64,000 bases of DNA from Cyanobacterium sp. T60_A2020_053. GTDB lineage: Bacteria > Cyanobacteriota > Cyanobacteriia > Cyanobacteriales > Cyanobacteriaceae. Every line of letters begins with the position of its first letter. Position 1 is the first letter of the stretch. The position numbers and the translations under genes were made by a program. The DNA is taken from contig JACYMF010000113.1 in assembly GCA_015272165.1 (NCBI GenBank), forward strand, positions 1 through 64,000. The letters run 5' to 3'. Shown piece by piece: positions 464 through 26,354 of the stretch. The notes under the pieces are model-generated. The model was not told the DNA's origin. It did not search any database and saw nothing but the letters and a program-made list of their open reading frames with translations.

Positions 464-1294
464 ATGCCAGAGTTACCAGAAGTTGAAACTGTCTGTCGTG
501 GATTAAATCAAGTAACATCAGGGTTAACGGTGAAGGGCGCCCTCCTCCTTTTACCGCGCACTTTGGCATATCCTCACGATAGCATTACTTTTGAAGAAGG
601 TATTAAGGATAAAAAAATTATTGCATGGCATCGGCGCGGAAAATATTTACTAGGAGAATTAAATGAGGGATGGTTAGGGATACATTTACGCATGACAGGG
701 CAGTTATTATGGGTAAATCAGCATAGTGAAATACAAAAACATACTCGTATCCGTTTATTTTTCCCTGACGATAAAGAATTGAGATTTGTGGATACCCGCA
801 CTTTTGGCAAATGGTGGTTTATTCATGATACCAGCGCCCTTCACACCATCATTACAGGGTTAGCAAAAATGGGAGTTGAGCCATTTTCCCCCCAATTCAC
901 TGGGGATTATTTAGCTCAAAAATTAGCAAAAACCCATCGTTGTATTAAAACAGTATTATTAGATCAAACCATCATCGCTGGAATCGGTAATATTTATGCT
1001 GATGAGGCTTTATTTAAAAGCGGTATCTTACCCCAAACCAAAGCCTGTGATTTAACCATTGTGCAAACGGAGGCATTGAGAAAAGCCATTATTGCCGTGT
1101 TAACCGATTCTATTAACGCTGGTGGCACTACCTTTAGCGATTTTTTGCAGGTGACTGGTGTTAATGGTAATTACGGGGGGATGGCGTGGGTTTACGGGCG
1201 CTATAATCAACCCTGCCGTATTTGTGGTAACTTGATTCAGAAAGTAAAATTACAAGGGCGCACTTCCCATTTTTGCACCCATTGTCAGAATTAA
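464..1294 (+). CDS. mutM: Formamidopyrimidine-DNA glycosylase
   Basis: Bifunctional DNA glycosylase/AP lyase that removes 8-oxoguanine and ring-opened purines in base-excision repair. The protein starts MPELPEVET, which places the catalytic N-terminal proline and the following glutamate exactly as in the Fpg/MutM family. A C-terminal zinc finger is complete (C251, C254, C271, C274). The 276-residue length is typical. It stands alone, with family A repeats directly upstream and a family B repeat downstream. The ATG start is fixed by the need for Pro2. Confidence 0.97.
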   Translation: MPELPEVETVCRGLNQVTSGLTVKGALLLLPRTLAYPHDSITFEEGIKDKKIIAWHRRGKYLLGELNEGWLGIHLRMTGQLLWVNQHSEIQKHTRIRLFFPDDKELRFVDTRTFGKWWFIHDTSALHTIITGLAKMGVEPFSPQFTGDYLAQKLAKTHRCIKTVLLDQTIIAGIGNIYADEALFKSGILPQTKACDLTIVQTEALRKAIIAVLTDSINAGGTTFSDFLQVTGVNGNYGGMAWVYGRYNQPCRICGNLIQKVKLQGRTSHFCTHCQN

Positions 1295-1370
1295 GTCAAA
1301 AGGGCAAAGGTAAATTTAAAGATAGCTTGGACTATTATTAAATTTTCTCACGTCTTAAAAGATGGGGTTT

Positions 1371-1549
1371 TATATCAAGTTTGTTTGATCAGCCGAAGGC
1401 TGCCGCTGCGCGATCACTTATAAATCAATTAAAGTAATCTTAGTTCAATTTATTGAACGATTGGGCTGTTGGTTCCGTGTAATTCATTACACGGTGGGTA
1501 AATTGCGAAGATGTAATCTATTTGTAACTAATTATCCGAACTTGATATA
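1371..1549 (-). repeat. Dispersed repeat family B, copy B1
   Basis: A complete copy of a roughly 180-base element with terminal inverted repeats TATATCAAGTTTG and CGAACTTGATATA. Inside are three inverted repeats: GATCAGCCGAAGGCTGCC..., GTTCAATTTATTGAAC, and CCGTGTAATTCATTACACGG. Related copies or fragments occur at 2486, 9059, 37575, 38279, 46919, 56147, 57426 and 60181. No ORF is present, and the structure is MITE-like with potential RNA hairpins. Confidence 0.88.
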
Positions 1550-1606
1550 ATTCATTACACGGTGGGTGTAAAGCGAAGATATTATCTATTTGTAACAGAT
1601 TATAAA
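1549..1606 (-). repeat. Family B partial copy abutting the next start codon
   Basis: Directly after B1, the end segment of family B is repeated (TTCATTACACGGTGGG, then a GCGAAGAT...TCTATTTGTAAC segment). It runs to within a base or so of the ATG at 1607, so the leader of the PabC-like gene is built from repeat DNA. A GTG within this fragment opens a longer in-frame reading, which I regard as spurious. Confidence 0.7.
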
Positions 1607-2398
1607 ATGTATTATTTTGATGGCAAATTGATTAACGATGATAACATCAGTTTATCGGTATATAGTCCAAGTTTGCTTTATGGCGCAAGTATTTTCACCA
1701 CTTTAAGGGTATATCATCAGAATTTAGATCATCCCTTAACCCAGTGGCAAGAACATCAGTTACGATTGAAAAATAGTATCATAGATTTTGAATGGGTTGA
1801 GCCTGATTGGCAACAAATTCGCCGAGAAGCAGAAAATTTAAGCGCCCTTCACCCCGTGCTGAGAATTGCCATTTTTCCAGACGGAAAAGAGTTGATTTTA
1901 ACTAGAGAATTACCACCGCAATTACAGTTAAAACAACAGAAAGGAATCAAAGGCAAAGTATTAATAGAAAATCAATATCAGCGCCCTCTACCACTACATA
2001 AAACGGGTAATTATTTAATCCCTTATTTAGCCCTAGAAAAAGTAAAAAAATTAGGATTTGGAGAAGGAATATTAACCGATAATCACAATAATTGGCTAGA
2101 AACTACCACCGGAAATTTATGGGGCTATCGTGATAATTGTTGGTTTACGCCGTCATTACCCCAAGGATTGTTACCCGGCATTGCTCGAAAATTTATCCTT
2201 GATAATGCTAATTTTACGGTAGCTGAAAATATTTGGCATGAAGATTTTATTCAGGGGTTACGGGCGCTGGGTTATAGTAATAGTGTTGTGGAATTTATTC
2301 CATTTCAACTCATTGAATTTTCAGGGAAATTAATTAATTTTGACGTTAATCATCATAGTATTAATTTAATCAAAAATCTTTTTTCAAACCAAAACTAA
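1607..2398 (+). CDS. pabC: Class IV aminotransferase, PabC-like (aminodeoxychorismate lyase)
   Basis: Fold-type IV PLP enzyme. The best guess is 4-amino-4-deoxychorismate lyase, which releases p-aminobenzoate for folate synthesis. Family hallmarks are SPSLLYGASIFTTLR near the start, the HKTGNYL segment that should carry the PLP lysine, the E-TTTGNLW cofactor loop and the QGLLPGIAR segment. I chose the ATG at 1607 because the 15 residues before it (from a GTG at 1562) are encoded by a family B repeat. A branched-chain or D-amino-acid aminotransferase role cannot be excluded. folC lies far away at 54 kb. Confidence 0.8.
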   Translation: MYYFDGKLINDDNISLSVYSPSLLYGASIFTTLRVYHQNLDHPLTQWQEHQLRLKNSIIDFEWVEPDWQQIRREAENLSALHPVLRIAIFPDGKELILTRELPPQLQLKQQKGIKGKVLIENQYQRPLPLHKTGNYLIPYLALEKVKKLGFGEGILTDNHNNWLETTTGNLWGYRDNCWFTPSLPQGLLPGIARKFILDNANFTVAENIWHEDFIQGLRALGYSNSVVEFIPFQLIEFSGKLINFDVNHHSINLIKNLFSNQN

Positions 2399-2871
2399 AT
2401 GTCATAAAAAAGTATTTTTTCATTGTATTTTGGGCTTCTACCCCGAATCCATAGCATTTCTGAATGATTCATGGCAATTTAAGAATAATCTTAGTTCAAT
2501 TCATTGAACGTGATCCTGTTAGGCGTGTAATTCATTACACGCTGGGTAAACTACGAAGGTGAAACTTTAACGTAATGTTGCGTAATTTAAGTAAAAATTG
2601 TTACAAAAGTTGACGGTAAAACTGAGCAATACATTGTATAACAGATTTGTCATAGTTCAAAAACTGAGACGTAAATCAAGTTACTTTGAACCCTGAGCAA
2701 AAAAGATAAAAACCCTACTATCAAAAGGTTTTAGTCTTTATGTAGCAATGATAAAGCTGATAATTAGGGTGTAAAAGGTTCATGGATAAATGAAAATTTT
2801 GTTACAAAAATCAAGATTTTGTCATAAAACTTAAAAATTTTCTTAATAAAAAAACCATAGGAGGACAATTA
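2399..2871 (+). promoter_or_regulatory. Long non-coding leader upstream of cpeC
   Basis: A 473-base gene-free stretch. Its first part holds a family B fragment (2486-2566). The remaining 300 bases are AT-rich and unique and presumably contain the cpeC promoter and 5' leader. A near-repeat GATTTGTCATA (2644-2654) and GATTTTGTCATA (2815-2826) could be a paired regulator site. A strong ribosome-binding site, AGGAGG, sits at 2860-2865, seven bases before the ATG. I could not identify -35/-10 boxes with confidence. Confidence 0.5.
2486..2566 (-). repeat. Family B fragment B2
   Basis: A partial family B copy. It has ATCTTAGTTCAAT, the GTTCAATTCATTGAAC inverted repeat and a GTGTAATTCATTACAC hairpin followed by GCTGGGTAAACTACGAAG. 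Both terminal repeats are missing. It lies in the cpeC upstream region. Confidence 0.75.
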
Positions 2872-3744
2872 ATGTCTCTAGCAAAAAGTGCCAGTTTAGG
2901 CTTAAGTTTCTACGAAGAAAATAACATCTTAGAAAGAAAACCTAATGATTCAGATGAGCGTATCACCCAAATTATCAATGCGGTGTATCGTCAAGTAGTA
3001 GGTAATTCCTACATCATGAAACAAGAAAGAGTAGTTAATGCTGAATCCCGTTTTCGTAATGGGCAATTAAGCGTCAGAGATTTTGTCAGACAAATTGCCA
3101 ATTCTGACTTATATCGTCGTCGTTTCTTTGAAAATTCTCCTCGTTATCGTTTTACAGAGTTAAATTTCAAACATTTACTAGGGCGCACTCCCGAAAACCA
3201 AGACGAAATGAGATTTCATAGTGACATTCTCGATACTTACGGTTATGAAGCGGATATTAACGCTTATGTGGATTCTGAAGAGTATTCCGAAGCCTTTGGC
3301 GATAATATCGTACCCTATTTCCGTGGCTATAAAACCACTAAAAATCGCACCATGGTAGAATTTACCCACAGTTTTGCTATGTTGCGCGGTGTAGCCAGTA
3401 GCGATTATGGTACTAATTTACGCTCCCCTGCCATTCATAAAAACGTTTTAACTCAAACCGCTGTGCCTATTGTGCCTCCTTCTGGCGGTGCTGTGGGCTA
3501 CGGTTGGGCGTTTCAAGGTAATGATGATTTTTCTTCCGCTACTCGTCAGGGGGTGGGCGCTGGAGACGACGGTCAAATTTTCCGAGTCGAAGTTACTGGC
3601 TATCGTGCTAAATCTTTCAATCGTCAACCTAAATTCCGTTGGTCTAATAAAGTTTATATGATTCCTTATAACCAGCTTTCGGATATTTACCAAAAAGTTC
3701 ATCAACAGGGGGGCGCTATTGCCTCTATTACTCCTGTTAACTAA
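2872..3744 (+). CDS. cpeC: Phycobilisome rod linker, CpeC-like
   Basis: Linker polypeptide that joins and terminates phycobiliprotein hexamers in phycobilisome rods. Residues about 1-180 form a phycobilisome linker domain (AVYRQVVGN, SVRDFVRQIA, ELNFKHLLGR, EEYSEAFG...PYFRGY). Residues about 235-290 form a CpcD-like capping domain (QIFRVEVTG...KVYMIPY...GGAIASI). The layout is shared by CpcC, PecC and CpeC. The ILDTYGYEADI and VEFTHSFAMLRG segments look closest to CpeC from memory, and the CpeR-like neighbour supports a phycoerythrin role. Start supported by AGGAGG. The family is certain; the subtype is inferred. Confidence 0.85.
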   Translation: MSLAKSASLGLSFYEENNILERKPNDSDERITQIINAVYRQVVGNSYIMKQERVVNAESRFRNGQLSVRDFVRQIANSDLYRRRFFENSPRYRFTELNFKHLLGRTPENQDEMRFHSDILDTYGYEADINAYVDSEEYSEAFGDNIVPYFRGYKTTKNRTMVEFTHSFAMLRGVASSDYGTNLRSPAIHKNVLTQTAVPIVPPSGGAVGYGWAFQGNDDFSSATRQGVGAGDDGQIFRVEVTGYRAKSFNRQPKFRWSNKVYMIPYNQLSDIYQKVHQQGGAIASITPVN

Positions 3745-18402: not shown

Positions 18403-18720
18403 TTATTCTTTATTTAAAATAGTTTCAATATCACGGTTTCCCTGAATGATTCTCACAATAATCAGCAAATCATCAGTATAAAAATAAAAAATTAACAATT
18501 TGTTAAAATCTTTCACTCGATATTGAGGTAAACCTTTTCATTTAGGATTATTAATTTGGCAAGATTTACCAAGATTTGGCATTTTAGCAAGTAAAGCAAT
18601 GGTTTCTCTGGAGGAATCAAAAAACTTCAAAGCAATATTTTCATTTTCTCGTATTAAATAGTTAAATAAATCCTCTAAATCTTGACTTGCTTTAGTTAAT
18701 ATTTTAATTAATAAGCTCAT
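18403..18720 (-). pseudogene. parE: ParE/RelE-family toxin broken by an in-frame stop
   Basis: The N-terminal 60 residues (ILTKASQDLEDLFNYLIREN...FFDSSRETIALLAKMPNLGKSC) look like a ParE toxin. A TGA at 18538-18540 stops the frame. Reading on in the same frame gives 44 more residues (KGLPQYRVKDFNKLLIFYF...DDLLIIVRIIQGNRDIETIL), which is the expected ParE C-terminal half including the RxIxGxRDIE segment, then TAA at 18403. One substitution, not a frameshift, separates it from a full toxin. The start overlaps the parD stop by four bases. Confidence 0.85.
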
Positions 18721-18974
18721 AAAATTTTACTACTAACTTGATTTTTTAATTTGAGTTTTTTTTCCTCCCACCATTGATCATTTGCTTCAATAAATTCAGG
18801 GCTTTCTAATCCTTCTAAAAGTAATTCTTCTAAATACTTTTCTGCTTGTTTTTCCCTATCGTTTTGAATTAAATAATTAATGTATTCACTGAGGTTACTA
18901 TAACCTTTTGTTTGGATTTGTTCATCAATAAAATCTTGTAAATCTTCAGCAACAGAAATATTTAATTGATTCAT
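18717..18974 (-). CDS. parD: ParD-like antitoxin
   Basis: An 85-residue ribbon-helix-helix antitoxin: LNISVAEDLQDFIDEQIQTKGYSNLSEYINYLIQND is the classic ParD DNA-binding region, followed by an acidic toxin-binding tail (LLLEGLESPEFIEANDQWWEE). It overlaps the parE remnant by four bases. The antitoxin is intact while its toxin carries a premature stop, so it may now act only as a DNA-binding protein or against a related toxin elsewhere. Confidence 0.88.
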   Translation of the reverse strand: MNQLNISVAEDLQDFIDEQIQTKGYSNLSEYINYLIQNDREKQAEKYLEELLLEGLESPEFIEANDQWWEEKKLKLKNQVSSKIL

Positions 18975-19068
18975 GGCTTAATGTCTAATTAATTAATAAT
19001 TTATTTTATCTTAAATCAAATACAACCCTGCTCCAGCGCCCTCAACCCCAAAAATGAACCCTCCACCC

Positions 19069-19317
19069 TCAAACAGCCATAGAATAACTAAAATATTGAG
19101 AAGCGGTTAACTTGTCAGAGTCTGAAAAAGGTAAATCATCAACGGTTAAACCTTTTTCTACTTTTTTCTTAAAATCAATTATTTCAATTCCCACAATTTT
19201 ATCTTCTTTATCATAGTCTATGATTATGCCTTCATTAATTTCGTCAGAATCATAAGATGGTATATCAATTAAATCAAAGTAAATAGCGTCTATATCACTA
19301 TCATATCTAATGTTCAT
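19069..19317 (-). CDS. DUF2283 family protein
   Basis: An 82-residue protein that starts MNIRYDSDIDAIYFDL and has EGIIIDYDKEDKIVGIEII, the pattern of DUF2283. These small proteins are commonly found in pairs with DUF4258-like genes and are suspected antitoxins. The start overlaps the stop of the upstream 84-residue gene by four bases, suggesting co-translation. It ends within a stretch containing the iterated GCGCCC word. Confidence 0.85.
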   Translation of the reverse strand: MNIRYDSDIDAIYFDLIDIPSYDSDEINEGIIIDYDKEDKIVGIEIIDFKKKVEKGLTVDDLPFSDSDKLTASQYFSYSMAV

Positions 19318-19568
19318 ATTTTTCCTTTTAAACCTCTGTGAAAGTGAAATGTAATAATTCTTGGTGGTGTGGTGTGTGATACAACAACTTTTAAAACTCG
19401 ATCATCAAAATCTGCTATGGTTTTATAGTAATAGATTTTTTCCGTAATGAAATCAGTACGGTCGGGATAATTGAGTGTTAGAAATATCCACAACGGTTTG
19501 ATTTCTAACCTTTTTTGTAAATTTTCTAATGGATGTAATGTCCAAAAAAAATCTTTATCTAAAGTCAT
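19314..19568 (-). CDS. Small protein paired with DUF2283 (DUF4258-like, putative toxin)
   Basis: An 84-residue protein: WTLHPLENLQKRLEIKPLWIFLTLNYPDRTDFI, then ADFDDRVLKVVVSHTTPPRIITFHFHRGLKGK. The layout (HP..H-like N terminus, RVLKVVV... strand, RIITFHFHR) resembles DUF4258, a RelE-like fold. Family assignment is from memory and context. It forms a two-gene unit with the DUF2283 gene that follows. The pair would fit a toxin-antitoxin module but this is inference. Confidence 0.65.
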   Translation of the reverse strand: MTLDKDFFWTLHPLENLQKRLEIKPLWIFLTLNYPDRTDFITEKIYYYKTIADFDDRVLKVVVSHTTPPRIITFHFHRGLKGKI

Positions 19569-19686: not shown

Positions 19687-20493
19687 TTACAGCAAATATA
19701 AACCCTGTTCAGCACCCTCCGACGGTAATAAATCCTTACTACTCTTAACCCCTTGATCTTCGCATAACTGAGCAAAATATTGTAAGCTGTCGAGGCGCGC
19801 GCCTAACTCGCTTAAAGTGTCTAAATATCCCGCAATGGCGATTTGTTGATGTAGCCAAATTTGATTATATCTTTCGGGCGCGTAAGACATCTCAAATTCC
19901 ACCTCAATTTCATTTTTTTGACGGCGAATTTTGTCATCATTTAACCTTAAATCTGCTTCTGAAATTTGCGTAATTCTTTTGACTCTTTCCTCTGTGATAT
20001 ATTCCCGAAAAGGCAATGCCGAAAAGCGATAAGCCGTTGCTAAAGCAGAATTATCATTCCTAAACATATCAACACTAATTAATGCTTTCCCCCAATTCTG
20101 CGTCACTTGCTGAAATTTTGGCACTTCTTGCGCTAATAAATCTCTTGCTTCTGCAAATTCTCCTAATTCTAATAATAAATTAGCTTCCGTTGCTGTTGCC
20201 ACTGCCCAACCTTGAATGGCAATATCCGTATTTAACATCAATTCCGCTTCTAATTCTGGGGTGCATTGCATGGCTTGACTACTAAGAAATAAGCGCACCG
20301 CCGAAACTGTTTTTAATGCTTGTCTTGGGAATCCATTAGGAAAGCGTTTTAAGTCGTTTAATTCTGCTTGTAAATGGGCAATTTCTTTGATTAATATGGC
20401 TTTATGAATGTTAGAAATTGCTTTGGCTAAACTGTTTTGTTTGTCTCTACTATCTTCTACTAATAAGTATAAATAAGCCAGTTGTCCAGACAT
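19687..20493 (-). CDS. Unrecognised 268-residue helical protein
   Basis: I do not recognise this protein. It is predominantly helical and rich in Leu, Ala and Glu, with a TPR-like stretch (GWAVATATEANLLLELGEFAEARDLLAQEV) and a long charged middle (RQKNEIEVEFEMSYAPERYNQIW). No signal peptide or membrane segment is visible. The frame stays open for 12 codons upstream of the ATG (GFNAVNNRLDK) and no clear ribosome-binding site is present, so it may be the 3' part of a longer gene. It lies beyond the restriction-modification pair from the dynamin remnant; the two could be parts of one disrupted locus. Confidence 0.6.
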   Translation of the reverse strand: MSGQLAYLYLLVEDSRDKQNSLAKAISNIHKAILIKEIAHLQAELNDLKRFPNGFPRQALKTVSAVRLFLSSQAMQCTPELEAELMLNTDIAIQGWAVATATEANLLLELGEFAEARDLLAQEVPKFQQVTQNWGKALISVDMFRNDNSALATAYRFSALPFREYITEERVKRITQISEADLRLNDDKIRRQKNEIEVEFEMSYAPERYNQIWLHQQIAIAGYLDTLSELGARLDSLQYFAQLCEDQGVKSSKDLLPSEGAEQGLYLL

Positions 20494-20559
20494 TTTGTCA
20501 AGGCGATTATTAACCGCATTAAAGCCTTATTCTAAGGTTTTTTGTACATGAGCTTATTT

Positions 20560-21462
20560 TTATTTTATATCTATTAATTGAGTAAGTATTTTAGTTACTT
20601 TAGTGTCTAAATCTTCACTTAAAGAATGATGAGGAATCTTTAATTTTTCTAAAATTTTGGCAAATTTCATAAATCCATTTTCTCCTCTTAATTCTATCCA
20701 ATTTACGCCTAAAATATTCGCTTGTTGTTTGTTTAAATCAGATAGTTTATCGGCAACAAAAATATTGGTTTCTCTGGCAAAGATTGCATCAGCACTTTCT
20801 GGATTGCCTTTACCCATTAATTTCACTTCACAACGATAATAGTTTTCATTATTTATTAAATAAAAATCAACTTCTCTCATACTTTCAGGAATATTAGTTT
20901 GATCAAAATGAACCAAAGGAACATCAAATAAATAACATAAAGAAGCCATTAAATATTTTTCTACTTTTTTCCCTGCCGTACTCCATAATCCTCCTCTTAA
21001 AGCTGCCCTTTTTACCGCTAAAGTATTAATAACAATTAGACTTTCATTTATATTCAAATCAACGCTAACACCCCTAAATTTAATAGTGAGAGTTAAATCA
21101 ATCTCATTTTCATTCTCTATTAAGTTACTAATTGATTCATATAAAACGTCATAATGTTCATTAGAAGCATTGATAACTATTTGTTTAGAGGCTGAATTAT
21201 ACATATTAGTAATGGTTTTTGTATTTAAACCAGAATTAATTGCTATTTCCTTTGACGTTAATTTCGTATCTAAAAAATAGTTTTTATACCAATCTTGAGT
21301 TAAATCTTTATTTTTGAGTTTAGCATCAACAATTTGTTTGAAAAATTCTATAGCAAACTGTAAAAATTCAGCATTAATTAAAGCAATAACTTCTATTCTA
21401 TAGTCCTGTCCTTTTATTAAACGTTTAATAATATTTTTAATAACTTGGTCTGTTAATGTCAT
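20560..21462 (-). CDS. Type II restriction endonuclease, CfrBI-like
   Basis: A 300-residue protein. A PD-(D/E)xK-like site is visible in REVDFYL followed by YRCEVKLMGKGNPESADA (residues about 195-225), a segment I associate with CfrBI-family enzymes, which cut CCWWGG. An HTH-like stretch (LTSKEIAINSGLNTKTITNMYN) lies near residues 70-90. It starts four bases after the methyltransferase stop, so the two form an operon. Specificity is inferred only from resemblance. Confidence 0.8.
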   Translation of the reverse strand: MTLTDQVIKNIIKRLIKGQDYRIEVIALINAEFLQFAIEFFKQIVDAKLKNKDLTQDWYKNYFLDTKLTSKEIAINSGLNTKTITNMYNSASKQIVINASNEHYDVLYESISNLIENENEIDLTLTIKFRGVSVDLNINESLIVINTLAVKRAALRGGLWSTAGKKVEKYLMASLCYLFDVPLVHFDQTNIPESMREVDFYLINNENYYRCEVKLMGKGNPESADAIFARETNIFVADKLSDLNKQQANILGVNWIELRGENGFMKFAKILEKLKIPHHSLSEDLDTKVTKILTQLIDIK

Positions 21463-21466
21463 TTTC

Positions 21467-22909
21467 TTAGAAAGAAATATTTTGAAACTCAGTGAAAGTT
21501 AAAAATTTTGTTTTTCTCTTTTGAAATAAAGAAGGAGTAGATTCTTGACTTTGAATATAATTAAAATATTCTACATTTTGTTCTGTTAAAAAAAATAGTC
21601 TATCTAATGCTTTTGCTACTTTTCCAACAGTACCACTACCACCAAAAGGATCGAAAACCAAATCTCCCTTATAAGAATAATATTGTATCACTTTGCGACA
21701 AAGTTCTTGAGGAAAAACTGCTGAATGTACCTTATCAAAACATGGATCAATTTTCCAAACGTTAGATGTTTCATAATCTCCAGTAACTTTACTCTCCGTT
21801 ACAATCTCCTCTGAATATTGTCTAATATTCCAATCTAATAATTTAGTTGTTTCTTTTCGATAAACCATTAAATATTCAGTCACTGGATTAGGCTTATACC
21901 CTAATGGTTTTTTATGTTGCATAAATCCACCAATTCTATTTTTGACGCTAGTTTCAGGTTTTAACCAAATAATATCATCGATAAATTCCCAACCATTTTT
22001 AACTAAAAAATAATGAAGATCAAACGGAATACCATATCTTTTACTACTATGCGCTCGGCTTATTCTCGGAATAATAATAGGGGAAGTATTAACAATTAAA
22101 AATCTACCTTCTTTTGTTGTGCGATGAATTTGTTGAAAAACTTGATTTAAAAATTCTAAATATGATTCGTAACTAGGATAAATCGAATAATCTCTCGCAT
22201 TATAATAAGGTGGAGAAGTAAAGGTTAAATGAATACTATCATCTGGTACATATTCTAATATTTTTAAAACATCTCCATTAACAACTACATTTTTAAGAAA
22301 TTCATAAGTTTTAGTATGAGGTAATTTACTTTTATTATTTTCTTCGGTAGAAAAATATTTTATATATATAGCAGTTCTTACCATTTCATTAGGATGATTA
22401 ATTAATTTTTTTAGTTCTTGAGATACTTTTTTAATGTCATCAAAAATCATCAAACTACGGATTGCTTGACATACAATTTTTGGATCTTCATCTTCTAAAA
22501 CAGATAAAAGAAAATCAACGTTTTTAAAATCTCTTTGTCTTCCTATTGTTGAAATTATTTCTCTCTTAACAATAGTTTCTTTTTCCTCTTTAAAAAGTTG
22601 TTTTAAGCTGTCTAAGTTATATTTATAAACAAGTTTTCCAATAGCTTTAATTGCATTGACTCTAACTTGTTTATGAGAATGATTTAATAAATTAAATAAA
22701 AATTTTCCATCAAAATTTGAAGGTAGTTTCCCTAAATTTTCAAGAATAAAATTAATGGTTGATACATCATTTTGTTTAGAAATTAAATTACCTATTTCAT
22801 TACTATTTTCAATTTTTAAACTAGAAATTAACTCTTTACTAATGACCATAAGTTGATTTATATTGCTTAGTACCAAACTTGATTGTAGCTTATTTTCTGA
22901 TAGCGACAA
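21467..22909 (-). CDS. HEAT-repeat/DNA methyltransferase fusion (probably N4-cytosine)
   Basis: The C-terminal roughly 280 residues are a DNA methyltransferase: motif IV TSPPY near residue 230 comes before the SAM-binding motif DPFGGSGT near 419, a beta-class order found in N4-cytosine and some N6-adenine enzymes. The first roughly 200 residues look like HEAT repeats (LLNHSHKQVRVNAIKAIGKL, REIISTIGRQRDFKNVDFLL, EDEDPKIVCQAIRSLM). It should protect the host from the adjacent CfrBI-like nuclease. The listed start is TTG; an ATG at 22846 is an alternative. The coding sequence is conspicuously AT-rich. Confidence 0.85.
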   Translation of the reverse strand: MSLSENKLQSSLVLSNINQLMVISKELISSLKIENSNEIGNLISKQNDVSTINFILENLGKLPSNFDGKFLFNLLNHSHKQVRVNAIKAIGKLVYKYNLDSLKQLFKEEKETIVKREIISTIGRQRDFKNVDFLLSVLEDEDPKIVCQAIRSLMIFDDIKKVSQELKKLINHPNEMVRTAIYIKYFSTEENNKSKLPHTKTYEFLKNVVVNGDVLKILEYVPDDSIHLTFTSPPYYNARDYSIYPSYESYLEFLNQVFQQIHRTTKEGRFLIVNTSPIIIPRISRAHSSKRYGIPFDLHYFLVKNGWEFIDDIIWLKPETSVKNRIGGFMQHKKPLGYKPNPVTEYLMVYRKETTKLLDWNIRQYSEEIVTESKVTGDYETSNVWKIDPCFDKVHSAVFPQELCRKVIQYYSYKGDLVFDPFGGSGTVGKVAKALDRLFFLTEQNVEYFNYIQSQESTPSLFQKRKTKFLTFTEFQNISF

Positions 22910-22918
22910 AAATCAAGA

Positions 22919-23523
22919 TTAACAAAGATTGATTACTTTTAAATTATCTCTGTCTTGTATGGATTTTAGTCCGGGTAAGTCTAAAAATTCAACTCCGATA
23001 CCTTGAGGAAGCCTGATAAACCTAATTCATTGGCAGGGAAAAGAGGAGCAAAAGCCTGAATTTTAGGGGCAATTAGTTCTTTTTTCTTCCTTCTTTCATG
23101 GTAACTGTGCATTACCACTTGAATTTTATTATAAAGCTCGTCATCACTTAAATTTGTCCATTCTCCCGTTTCCCAAACTGCATCGGGAGTAGGCTCGATG
23201 ATTAATCTACGCTCATCAGAATGTCTTAATGTCAATACACCGCCACTCATTTCCCCTGCTTCGATGGGCGCTATACTTCTTCCCATCAAAGCGTTAACTG
23301 CTGTTGATTTTCCTGATGAAGTTGTGCCGATAGTGGCAATGGATAAGGTGGGGTGTGACAGGCGCTGGGTTGCTTCGGCGTGCGCTGTGCGGAAGTCGTC
23401 TAAATTATTTTTGATGGTTTCATCTTCAAACACTTCAGGGGAGAAGTTAACAAGGTTAGAAACTGCATTCCCTAATTCGCTGAGGATGTTTCGAGTATTT
23501 TCTAGTTTGTTGTCAATATTCAT
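22919..23523 (-). pseudogene. Dynamin-like GTPase, frameshifted and truncated
   Basis: The N-terminal 180 residues have a dynamin-type G1 loop GTTSSGKST and a switch region EMSGGVLTLRH. The frame then ends at TAG (22981). A one-base shift near 23000-23015 restores LPQGIGVEFLDLPGLKSIQDRDNLKVIN, including the G3 motif DLPG, before another stop at 22919. The remaining GTPase and stalk domains are missing; ten bases further on the methyltransferase gene begins. This looks like a gene cut off by arrival of the restriction-modification pair and later frameshifted. Confidence 0.82.
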
Positions 23524-23631
23524 GAACTTGATTGATTCTCCGTAGTAATTAAAATTATATGTTGCTATTTATTTATCAGTAAAAAAATACAGATTTATGC
23601 AATATTTACTGAAATTAAAATTTTTCCGTTG

Positions 23632-24294
23632 TTAATGGGGAAAGGATGCTCGAAAAAATAATCTGGAGAAACTATTGATAATAAAGGTAATAAGATCAAT
23701 AATCGAACCTAACCAACCTCCTACTTCGAGAAATAAACCTAAAACATAAAGAAAGGCAATAGTTAAAATAACTAAAACGCCAAATGTTACAGTCATTACC
23801 TCGCCAAATGTCATTGGTATGGGTTCATATTGTTTAAAAAATCTGCCCATGAATTTAGCGCCCTTCCATGCCTTTTTCCCAGCGCCCTTCGCCTTGTTTG
23901 AAGGGGATAATCTTTGTCGCCAACTTTTCTTGACTTTTATATCTTCACCTTCAACATTTTCCGTTTCAATGGTTTCCGTGTTACCACCATCAACACTTTT
24001 TGACTCAATCATTTCCGTTTCTATCTTGTCAGTGTTGATATTATCAATGGTTTCTGTTTTAACAACTTCCGTTTCTACCTTGTCAGTGTTGATATTCTCG
24101 GAGGTTTCTGTTTTAACAACTTCCGTTTCTATCTTGTCAGTGTTGATATTATCGGATGTTTCTGGTTGAAGATTCTCCGTTGTGATAGTTTCTATGGTGT
24201 TAGTGTCAGCAAAGGTGTTAGTATCAGCAAATTTCCCTTGCTGTTGTGATAACGCTTGTTTTGCTACCCCCAGCGCCCTCCGCCATTTTGCCAT
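23632..24294 (-). CDS. Membrane protein with 18-residue tandem repeats
   Basis: A 220-residue protein of unknown function. Residues about 45-116 are four degenerate 18-residue repeats of the form NINTDKIETEVVKTETS. Then come a basic segment (KVKKSWRQRLSPSNKAKGAGKKAWKG) and two hydrophobic helices (MTFGEVMTVTFGVLVILTIAFL and VGGWLGSIIDLITFIINSF) near the C terminus. The long acidic N-terminal tail is probably cytoplasmic. It precedes the broken dynamin gene on the same strand, with a spacer of about 108 bases, and may have worked with it at membranes. Confidence 0.7.
   Translation of the reverse strand: MAKWRRALGVAKQALSQQQGKFADTNTFADTNTIETITTENLQPETSDNINTDKIETEVVKTETSENINTDKVETEVVKTETIDNINTDKIETEMIESKSVDGGNTETIETENVEGEDIKVKKSWRQRLSPSNKAKGAGKKAWKGAKFMGRFFKQYEPIPMTFGEVMTVTFGVLVILTIAFLYVLGLFLEVGGWLGSIIDLITFIINSFSRLFFRASFPH
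23947..24162 (-). repeat. 54-base tandem repeats in the membrane-protein gene
   Basis: Four degenerate 54-base units encode the 18-residue NTDKxETE repeats. The second and third are nearly identical at the DNA level, which suggests recent unit duplication. Confidence 0.75.
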
Positions 24295-24739: not shown

Positions 24740-24964
24740 ATGCTAATTACCGTAACCTACGATGGAAAAGTATTAAAACCCAAAGATAAATTAAACTTAG
24801 ATACAGATAAAGAATATCAAATTCAAGTAATTGATGAATCTTCGCAATTTTACTTAATCAATGAATTAAAAAAATCTGCCGATTTATACGCTGAAATTTA
24901 TCAAGAAGATTTAGATTTACAACAGTTAACGGAGATAGCTTGTGAGGATTTTATCGAAGAATGA
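24740..24964 (+). CDS. Antitoxin of a MazF-type pair (AF2212/DUF104-like)
   Basis: A 74-residue protein: LITVTYDGKVLKPKDKLNL at the N terminus resembles AF2212-like (DUF104) antitoxins, followed by an acidic helical tail (AEIYQEDLDLQQLTEIACEDFIEE) suited to blocking a toxin. Its stop overlaps the start of the MazF/PemK-type gene by four bases, the typical antitoxin-first order. A family A repeat lies 90 bases upstream. Confidence 0.75.
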   Translation: MLITVTYDGKVLKPKDKLNLDTDKEYQIQVIDESSQFYLINELKKSADLYAEIYQEDLDLQQLTEIACEDFIEE

Positions 24965-25314
24965 TTTTAACTAGAGGTATGATTATCAATGTCAATCTTA
25001 ATCCGACTTTAGGTTCAGAAACAGGAAAAATAAGACCATGTGTCATAGTAACAAATAATATTTATAATCAACGAGTTCCAGTAATTCAAGTCGTCCCCAT
25101 AACAAATTGGACTGAAAAAAAAGCTAAAATAAAAACTAACATTGAAATTACCCCTTCTTTAGTAAATAATTTAGATAAAAAATCTATTGCTGACTGTTTA
25201 CAAACTCGCCCCATTGATTATAATTCTCGATTTGTCAGTTTCAGAGGAGAATTAGAAAATGATTTTATTCAACAAATAGATAATGCCTTAAAAATTGTTT
25301 TTTCTTTAACTTAA
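24961..25314 (+). CDS. mazF: MazF/PemK-family mRNA interferase toxin
   Basis: A 117-residue endoribonuclease toxin. Family segments: RGMIINVNLNPTLGSETGKIRPCVIVTNN (with GxExGKxRP), VPVIQVVPITNW and SIADCLQTRPID. The loop arginine in RP and the Thr/Ser-rich sheet are in place and the frame is intact. It overlaps the upstream antitoxin by four bases and is one of at least three toxin-antitoxin-like modules in the 18-26 kb island. Confidence 0.9.
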   Translation: MILTRGMIINVNLNPTLGSETGKIRPCVIVTNNIYNQRVPVIQVVPITNWTEKKAKIKTNIEITPSLVNNLDKKSIADCLQTRPIDYNSRFVSFRGELENDFIQQIDNALKIVFSLT

Positions 25315-25412: not shown

Positions 25413-26354
25413 ATGATACCCAAAAAATTTTTACAGAACATAACCAAACCTTTTGGCATCACCGAAGGAGAATCAGAAGTATTATCAAGGGCGATTCAAG
25501 GGGAATCCCTCGACGACATCGCCCAAGAATTAGGCATTTCCAGAGATGCCTTGCAAAAAAGACTAGGGGAAGTTTATAAAAAATTCAAAATTCTCGGTTT
25601 TGGACCGGGAAAATTAGCTAAATTACAACAGCGATTAGTGGAGGAATATCAAAAATATCGCCAAAATGAATCTCAGAAGGCTGAGATGGATATAAGCATA
25701 GAAAGTGAAGATATTAGTTTATCTTATTTATCTAAGCAAGAGATGCAATTACTTTATGTTTTACTGCTGAATAAATCAGGAATTGATTTAACAGTAATTC
25801 AAAAGGATATTTTCCCTAGTGTCAGCTTGGGGGAAATATTGATTATGGTGGGGGAAATGCTGAAACAAGGTTTATTACAAGAGACAAAAATTGATGGTGA
25901 AAATAAATTTATTTTAGGGGATGATCTTAAAATTTCTTTGGCACAACAGTTAAAAATTCAAAGTAAGTTAATTATAGAAAGTTTTAATTTTGAAGAATTA
26001 ACTTTAAGTGATTTATGGCAAAAATTAGGTTTAATTAATGATGAAAAAACCTTGCTTAATGAGCATATTTTAAATAAATATTTAGCAATTTATTTTAATG
26101 ATTGTGGTTATGATGCTTATGAAATTTGGGAATTAAATACGGCTCAAAAATACCTGTTTACTGCTTTAAAGTTTGCTGATAATTTAGACAATATTTATTA
26201 TAATTTAGGCTTAGTTTATGAAAAAATGCAAGACTGGCAATCAGCATTAAATTATTTTAAAGAAGCATGGGAAAGAAATCAAGATAATAACACTTCCCTT
26301 AAAATCGCTGATATGCAAAAAAAATTAAATAGTAACATTATCAATAATTCTTGA
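25413..26354 (+). CDS. HTH-TPR regulatory protein
   Basis: A 313-residue protein. Residues about 10-65 are a LuxR-like helix-turn-helix (GITEGESEVLSRAIQGESLDDIAQELGIS) followed by KRLGEVYKKF and GPGKLAKLQQ. I recall that N-terminal block from cyanobacterial STAND/NB-ARC and pentapeptide proteins. A middle region (about 100-215) may hold winged-helix elements. Residues about 235-300 form one or two TPR units (NIYYNLGLVYEKMQDWQSALNYFKEAW). No ATPase domain is present. It lies 98 bases downstream of the MazF-type gene; a link to it is possible but unproven. Confidence 0.7.
   Translation: MIPKKFLQNITKPFGITEGESEVLSRAIQGESLDDIAQELGISRDALQKRLGEVYKKFKILGFGPGKLAKLQQRLVEEYQKYRQNESQKAEMDISIESEDISLSYLSKQEMQLLYVLLLNKSGIDLTVIQKDIFPSVSLGEILIMVGEMLKQGLLQETKIDGENKFILGDDLKISLAQQLKIQSKLIIESFNFEELTLSDLWQKLGLINDEKTLLNEHILNKYLAIYFNDCGYDAYEIWELNTAQKYLFTALKFADNLDNIYYNLGLVYEKMQDWQSALNYFKEAWERNQDNNTSLKIADMQKKLNSNIINNS

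Follow-up and report, generated by a model that had tools for sequence, protein, structure and literature searches.

A foreign type II restriction-modification cassette has probably replaced the interior of a probable anti-phage operon, and the evidence makes it likely that this operon is a recurrent target for replacement by defence genes. The locus occupies positions 19,687-23,523 of the window, i.e. the whole stretch of 64,000 nt that was analysed (JACYMF010000113.1, assembly GCA_015272165.1), and its genes lie on the minus strand: a cut GTPase (frame 22981-23523), a methyltransferase (21467-22909), an endonuclease (20560-21462) and a further frame (19687-20493). The initial annotation had recognised a restriction-modification pair beside a truncated GTPase, a description that Pfam and tblastn searches bear out. 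The features referred to below are:

23524-23605, minus strand: GTPase leader, partly conserved by eye (TTGCATAAAT...TACTGATAA) among the leader sequences of nine loci
22932-23523, minus strand: 5′ remnant of the GTPase gene, residues 1 to ~204 of ~832 (Pfam Dynamin_N; tblastn to the intact GTPase of genome G003, 66-70% identity)
20556-22931, minus strand: restriction-modification cassette of 2376 bp, 26.3% G+C (blastn to genome G013; composition)
22882-22909, minus strand: promoter-like TTGTCG-16-TACAAT within the cassette, upstream of ATG 22846
21467-22846, minus strand: DNA methyltransferase with N-terminal HEAT repeats, TSPPYY and DPFGGSGT (Pfam N6_N4_Mtase 3e-35, HEAT_2)
20560-21462, minus strand: restriction endonuclease of the CfrBI family, full length (Pfam RE_CfrBI; PADLOC REase_II 7.5e-106)
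19687-20547, minus strand: 3′ remnant of the third operon gene, JukB-like in intact relatives (64-65% identity to full-length proteins; junction)

A restriction-modification cassette between two gene remnants

On the upstream side, the frame 22981-23523 matches positions 1-70 of the 168-position Dynamin_N profile, i.e. about half of the domain is kept, and similarity to the intact 832-aa GTPase stops at about residue 204. The G1 motif GTTSSGKST is preserved and, as first described, the G3 motif DLPGLKSIQDRDNL follows after a one-base shift near 23008; the shifted frame then runs to a stop at 22919-22921. In relatives, homology reaches ~97 bp upstream of the GTPase start, beyond which the flanks differ. 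The GTPase had been said to be lost exactly where the methyltransferase begins. The 10-base gap between the stop and TTG 22909 is indeed present, but this TTG is probably not the methyltransferase start because a homologue aligns only from residue 22, corresponding to ATG 22846, which is therefore probably the likelier start. TTG 22909 also coincides with the -35-like TTGTCG. Since promoter-like sites are no more numerous in the region than expected by chance, a promoter inside the cassette is put forward as a suggestion only.

Both enzymes are complete: the N6_N4_Mtase match spans positions 1-220 of 221, making the methyltransferase full length, and the RE_CfrBI match (1.3e-24) covers positions 2-256 of 257. 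They most likely form an ordinary type II system, in which the methyltransferase is predicted to mark host sites and the CfrBI-type nuclease to cut unmarked DNA. The endonuclease is rare, occurring in three of 293 genomes of the order, and its two close copies, in the window and in G013, both reside in this operon. Its nearest relative in the contig scan belongs to a Falkowbacteria genome (77% protein identity), where similar stretches lie on either side of the pair as if they were direct repeats (L069, 7140-7448 and 9911-10327; seen in translations only). Carriage by plasmids or phages was also considered and rejected, as no plasmid was found to encode the endonuclease and viral contigs held no relatives of it or of the third gene. 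Neither of these two proteins matched a solved structure.

On the downstream side, the frame 19687-20493 is open for 11 codons above its ATG, to 20526, rather than for the 12 initially counted; the remnant contains one in-frame stop (20527-20529), after which 279 codons are open. These correspond to the 3′ part of a 448-aa gene in G003 (65% identity). The 268-residue product had been proposed for a search against the C-termini of dynamin-like proteins, but its match is this separate third operon gene, which rules it out as the lost end of the GTPase. The JukB-matching part of the third gene is absent from the window, and the surviving C-terminal part lies outside the JukB match.

Compared with G003, the window lacks the operon stretch from about residue 204 of the GTPase to about residue 140 of the third protein, which amounts to ~3.3 kb by coordinates, and 2376 bp stand in its place. 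The suggestion that a mobile restriction-modification cassette had entered a membrane-GTPase locus is thus supported by the intact operon in G003, by the recurrence of the cassette and by its foreign G+C content (as against 36.5% in the window, 41% in the GTPase remnant and 37.8% in the third-gene remnant). What does not hold is plain insertion: with so much operon DNA missing, the event in its present form amounts to a replacement. The remnants show no more divergence than intact homologues do, so the break is probably recent. An assembly artefact can be dismissed because the independent genome G013 shows the same arrangement. A search via conserved neighbours, with isiA at 25413-26354, found no close strain whose site is empty at the chromosomal position that it has in the window, and gene order near isiA differs within the genus.

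Toxin-antitoxin-like genes flank the locus on both sides (18538-19568 and 24740-25314), comprising a ParD-like gene with a short partner, a DUF2283 gene and an AF2212-like gene with PemK/MazF. Between the GTPase leader and the second of these groups, 23632-24294 encodes a protein of 220 aa that contains imperfect repeats (SENINTDKVETEVVKTET), has a hydrophobic stretch at its C-terminus and lacks a Pfam match.

The intact operon and its mosaic alleles

The intact locus that the initial annotation proposed to look for exists within the same genus. In G003 (L021), the 832-aa GTPase is followed by a 307-aa protein and the 448-aa protein of which the 268-residue frame is the 3′ part, all in one operon. 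The same three genes occur in the same order in G137, G275, G030, G175, G282, G194, G046, G280, G291 and G209, so the GTPase and the third gene, whose lack of linkage would have spoken against a common locus, are linked in relatives. Across these, the operon encodes an 832-aa dynamin-like GTPase, a protein of ~300 aa without a known family and a protein of ~450 aa with a JukB-matching N-terminus; in G275, coordinates place the operon on a conjugative Nostoc plasmid.

The intact G003 GTPase matches Dynamin_N over positions 1-167 of 168 (4e-14). Its other matches are weak and mostly part-length, namely LeoA (4.2e-7 over 74 residues), LeoBC (1.1e-6) and the bacterial dynamin-like protein BDLP (PDB 2j68; 9e-5). 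The middle protein is probably a membrane protein, given a likely membrane segment judged from its sequence, and the third protein matches JukB over residues 8-144 (8.3e-13, PADLOC). Neither the GTPase nor the middle protein of G003 matched JukA in PADLOC. Because a JukB match and a weak LeoA match come without a JukA-like partner, we regard the operon as a probable membrane-acting anti-phage defence system and not as a member of Juk. The JukB-like third gene (PADLOC E=8e-13) also lends weight to the earlier thought that the interrupted locus might itself be a defence gene.

JukB pores form on the early vesicle of nucleus-forming phages, according to PMC13282480, which cites Cell 2025. The ~140 N-terminal residues of the third protein resemble JukB, whereas its total length of ~450 aa and its partners, a dynamin-like GTPase and a protein without a known family in place of a JukA match, do not fit Juk. 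Likewise, the GTPase domain is related in sequence to those of Eleos (LeoA-LeoBC) and BDLP, but the similarity to LeoA/LeoBC is weak and mostly partial rather than strong and full-length, and the operon partners are different.

Intact copies of the operon are themselves mosaic, with conserved ends and a diverged interior. Between G003 and G007, identity at 4-fold sites of the GTPase gene is 0.83 for residues 1-198, 0.79 for 271-350 and 0.39 for 371-832; it is 0.23 in the middle gene, where sites are few, and 0.70 in the third gene. G011 displays the same drop near GTPase residue 340. The interior appears to have been exchanged against conserved ends even without a foreign cassette.

Recurrent replacement between the operon ends

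In G013 (L032), a member of another genus, the same cassette sits between the same two operon genes. Its first 649 bp are 94% and its last 302 bp 92% identical to the window (blastn), as opposed to ~67-70% for the GTPase and third-gene flanks. At 4-fold sites, identity reaches 0.84 and 0.57 in the cassette against 0.37 and 0.27 in the flanks, so the cassette is far younger than the divergence between the two operon copies. Its right end falls on the same base in both genomes (the cassette ending in ATAAAATAAAAAT), and its left end agrees within ~12 bp (starting with AAAGTAATYAAT), a motif that could derive from the GTPase (DNLKVI) and thereby blur this end by ~12 bp. The breakpoints in the operon differ: the GTPase is cut at residue 204 in the window and at 285 in G013, the third-gene cut points differ as well, and the window keeps less operon DNA on both sides. 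G013 therefore provides a second occurrence of a mobile unit with defined ends, yet the two sites are the same operon. By eye, neither target duplications nor terminal repeats were seen at the junctions in the window and G013.

The G013 copy is interrupted in turn: two other genes stand in for the 3′ portion of the methyltransferase gene and the 5′ portion of the endonuclease gene, which makes it a replacement within a replacement; the window's is the only genome with an uninterrupted cassette. The replacing genes (L032, 10119-11296) encode a REase_II-like protein of 320 aa and a 72-aa frame.

Other interiors have been acquired elsewhere. A second cassette, composed of a C5-methyltransferase fragment and an HNH gene, is common to G002 (L023) and G014 (L033; 92% over 1029 bp). 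It joins the GTPase leader in G014, where an endonuclease fragment and third-gene residues ~250-448 follow, and GTPase codon 47 in G002. Since the arms of these two loci resemble each other about as closely as their cassettes do, they may go back to one acquisition with later rearrangement. In G001, GTPase codons 1-53 lead into a DrmD-like helicase gene (PADLOC E=3e-298). The initial annotation had counted a GTPase truncated beside a different flank as evidence against its picture. Such truncation is found in G001 and G002, but as both GTPases are cut beside other restriction or helicase genes, the picture is extended rather than refuted. G036 combines GTPase residues 1-53, two genes (DUF2971 and CoiA-like) and third-gene residues 339-445, followed further on by a peptidase, a type ISP restriction enzyme and a second 3′ piece of the third gene.

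The interior can also be lost without replacement, as in G180 and G082, where it is cleanly deleted with no cargo. Transposases or insertion sequences have entered the operon in G274 and G058, and third-gene 3′ remnants lie beside ordinary genes in G056, G098, G114 and others. The notion that all such remnants adjoin defence genes had to be abandoned, given that several, from other families, have as neighbours a transposase next to glutamate synthase, CobN or glycosyltransferase genes. Decay on its own is thus common as well, and the tally of replaced loci is not that of a designed census.

Several further observations concern these loci. In L022 (6991-12783), the DrmD-like helicase behind the 53-codon GTPase remnant is accompanied by 513-aa and 203-aa proteins without known families, possibly as an unrecognised defence operon, and an upstream gene (1234-3018) with a PLD domain matches MkoB. 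Three contigs of G180 (L049, L050, L051) each carry a separate 5′ GTPase remnant. In G250 (L088, 3048-4632), a different JukB-like gene lies directly upstream of a third-gene 3′ remnant. At the left end of the G002 cassette, ATAATTAGATAG is identical to part of the G011 GTPase leader; this piece and AAAGTAATYAAT in G013 may be relics of earlier junctions, a lead noted by eye.

Competing histories and their meaning

The reading we favour starts from an operon of a dynamin-like GTPase, a probable membrane protein and a JukB-like protein, probably acting against phages at membranes. In this reading, the cassette took the place of its interior, between codon ~204 of the GTPase gene and codon ~140 or so of the third, and so destroyed the old system while bringing in a new, complete one that reads the same way. 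Three points are inferences: each system has or had a defensive role, the pair is active, and the cassette entered diverged copies of the operon in separate events. With the same pair present in a diverged operon copy of another genus, the operon looks like a site at which defence genes are exchanged.

A single older insertion, after which the locus spread between genera and individual lineages lost the dead flanks up to a cassette protected by selection, would account for the shared operon and relative position in the window and G013, as well as for the smaller amount of operon DNA on both sides in the window. We regard this as quite improbable: silent sites are near saturation in the flanks but not in the cassette, so the two share no single recent history, and deletions in separate lineages would have had to stop at identical bases of the cassette at either end. 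Pseudogene decay, in which an operon frequently lost in cyanobacteria leaves only its conserved ends recognisable and the pair merely happened to land in DNA that was already dead, draws on the clean deletions and insertion sequences described above, on the remnants beside ordinary genes and on the fact that detection favours conserved ends. It is nonetheless unlikely, because two genera carry the same rare cassette in this operon and because a second cassette, the DrmD-like helicase and the two-gene insert of G036 also occupy this operon.

Alternatively, the operon ends might serve as homology arms, with interiors swapped by homologous recombination and restriction cassettes being alternative interiors. 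The mosaic alleles fit this better than the window does, since identity between G003 and G007 is high in the GTPase 5′ part and the third gene but low in between, and G011 changes at the same place. We consider this explanation rather unlikely: the window's arms share ~67% identity with those of G013 all the way to the cassette, a divergence too great for homologous exchange of the ordinary kind, and the breakpoints are not the same. Beyond the replacement that we favour, we only tentatively raise the broader idea that the operon is an integrase-free site of defence exchange, whose conserved ends persist while the interior is swapped for diverged alleles or other defence systems behind the old promoter.

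Restriction-modification systems are known as mobile units that insert with long target duplications or accompany related rearrangements, according to the portion of PMC3031569 that draws on Nobusato (2000) and Furuta (2010). The present cassette resembles them as a compact pair without its own recombinase, inside another gene and associated with rearrangement. It differs in the missing operon DNA, in the lack of a target duplication visible by eye and in its target, which is a further probable defence operon and has received at least two different restriction cassettes. Core defence hotspots, as in Pseudomonas aeruginosa (PMC10250203), similarly hold alternative defence genes at one place between conserved flanks; here, however, the role of the flanks falls to the two ends of a probable defence operon itself, not to core genes around an island. 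What is new is therefore not the mobility of restriction systems but the recurrent interior replacement of one Juk/dynamin-like operon.

The locus captures defence turnover inside a probable defence operon at near base resolution, and this turnover has happened more than once, with different cassettes. It also draws attention to an uncharacterised dynamin and JukB-like operon in cyanobacteria, one copy of which is on a conjugative plasmid. If the operon does act as an exchange site, its ends could be used as bait for further defence genes, and its mosaic alleles would make the movement of integrase-free defence genes directly testable.
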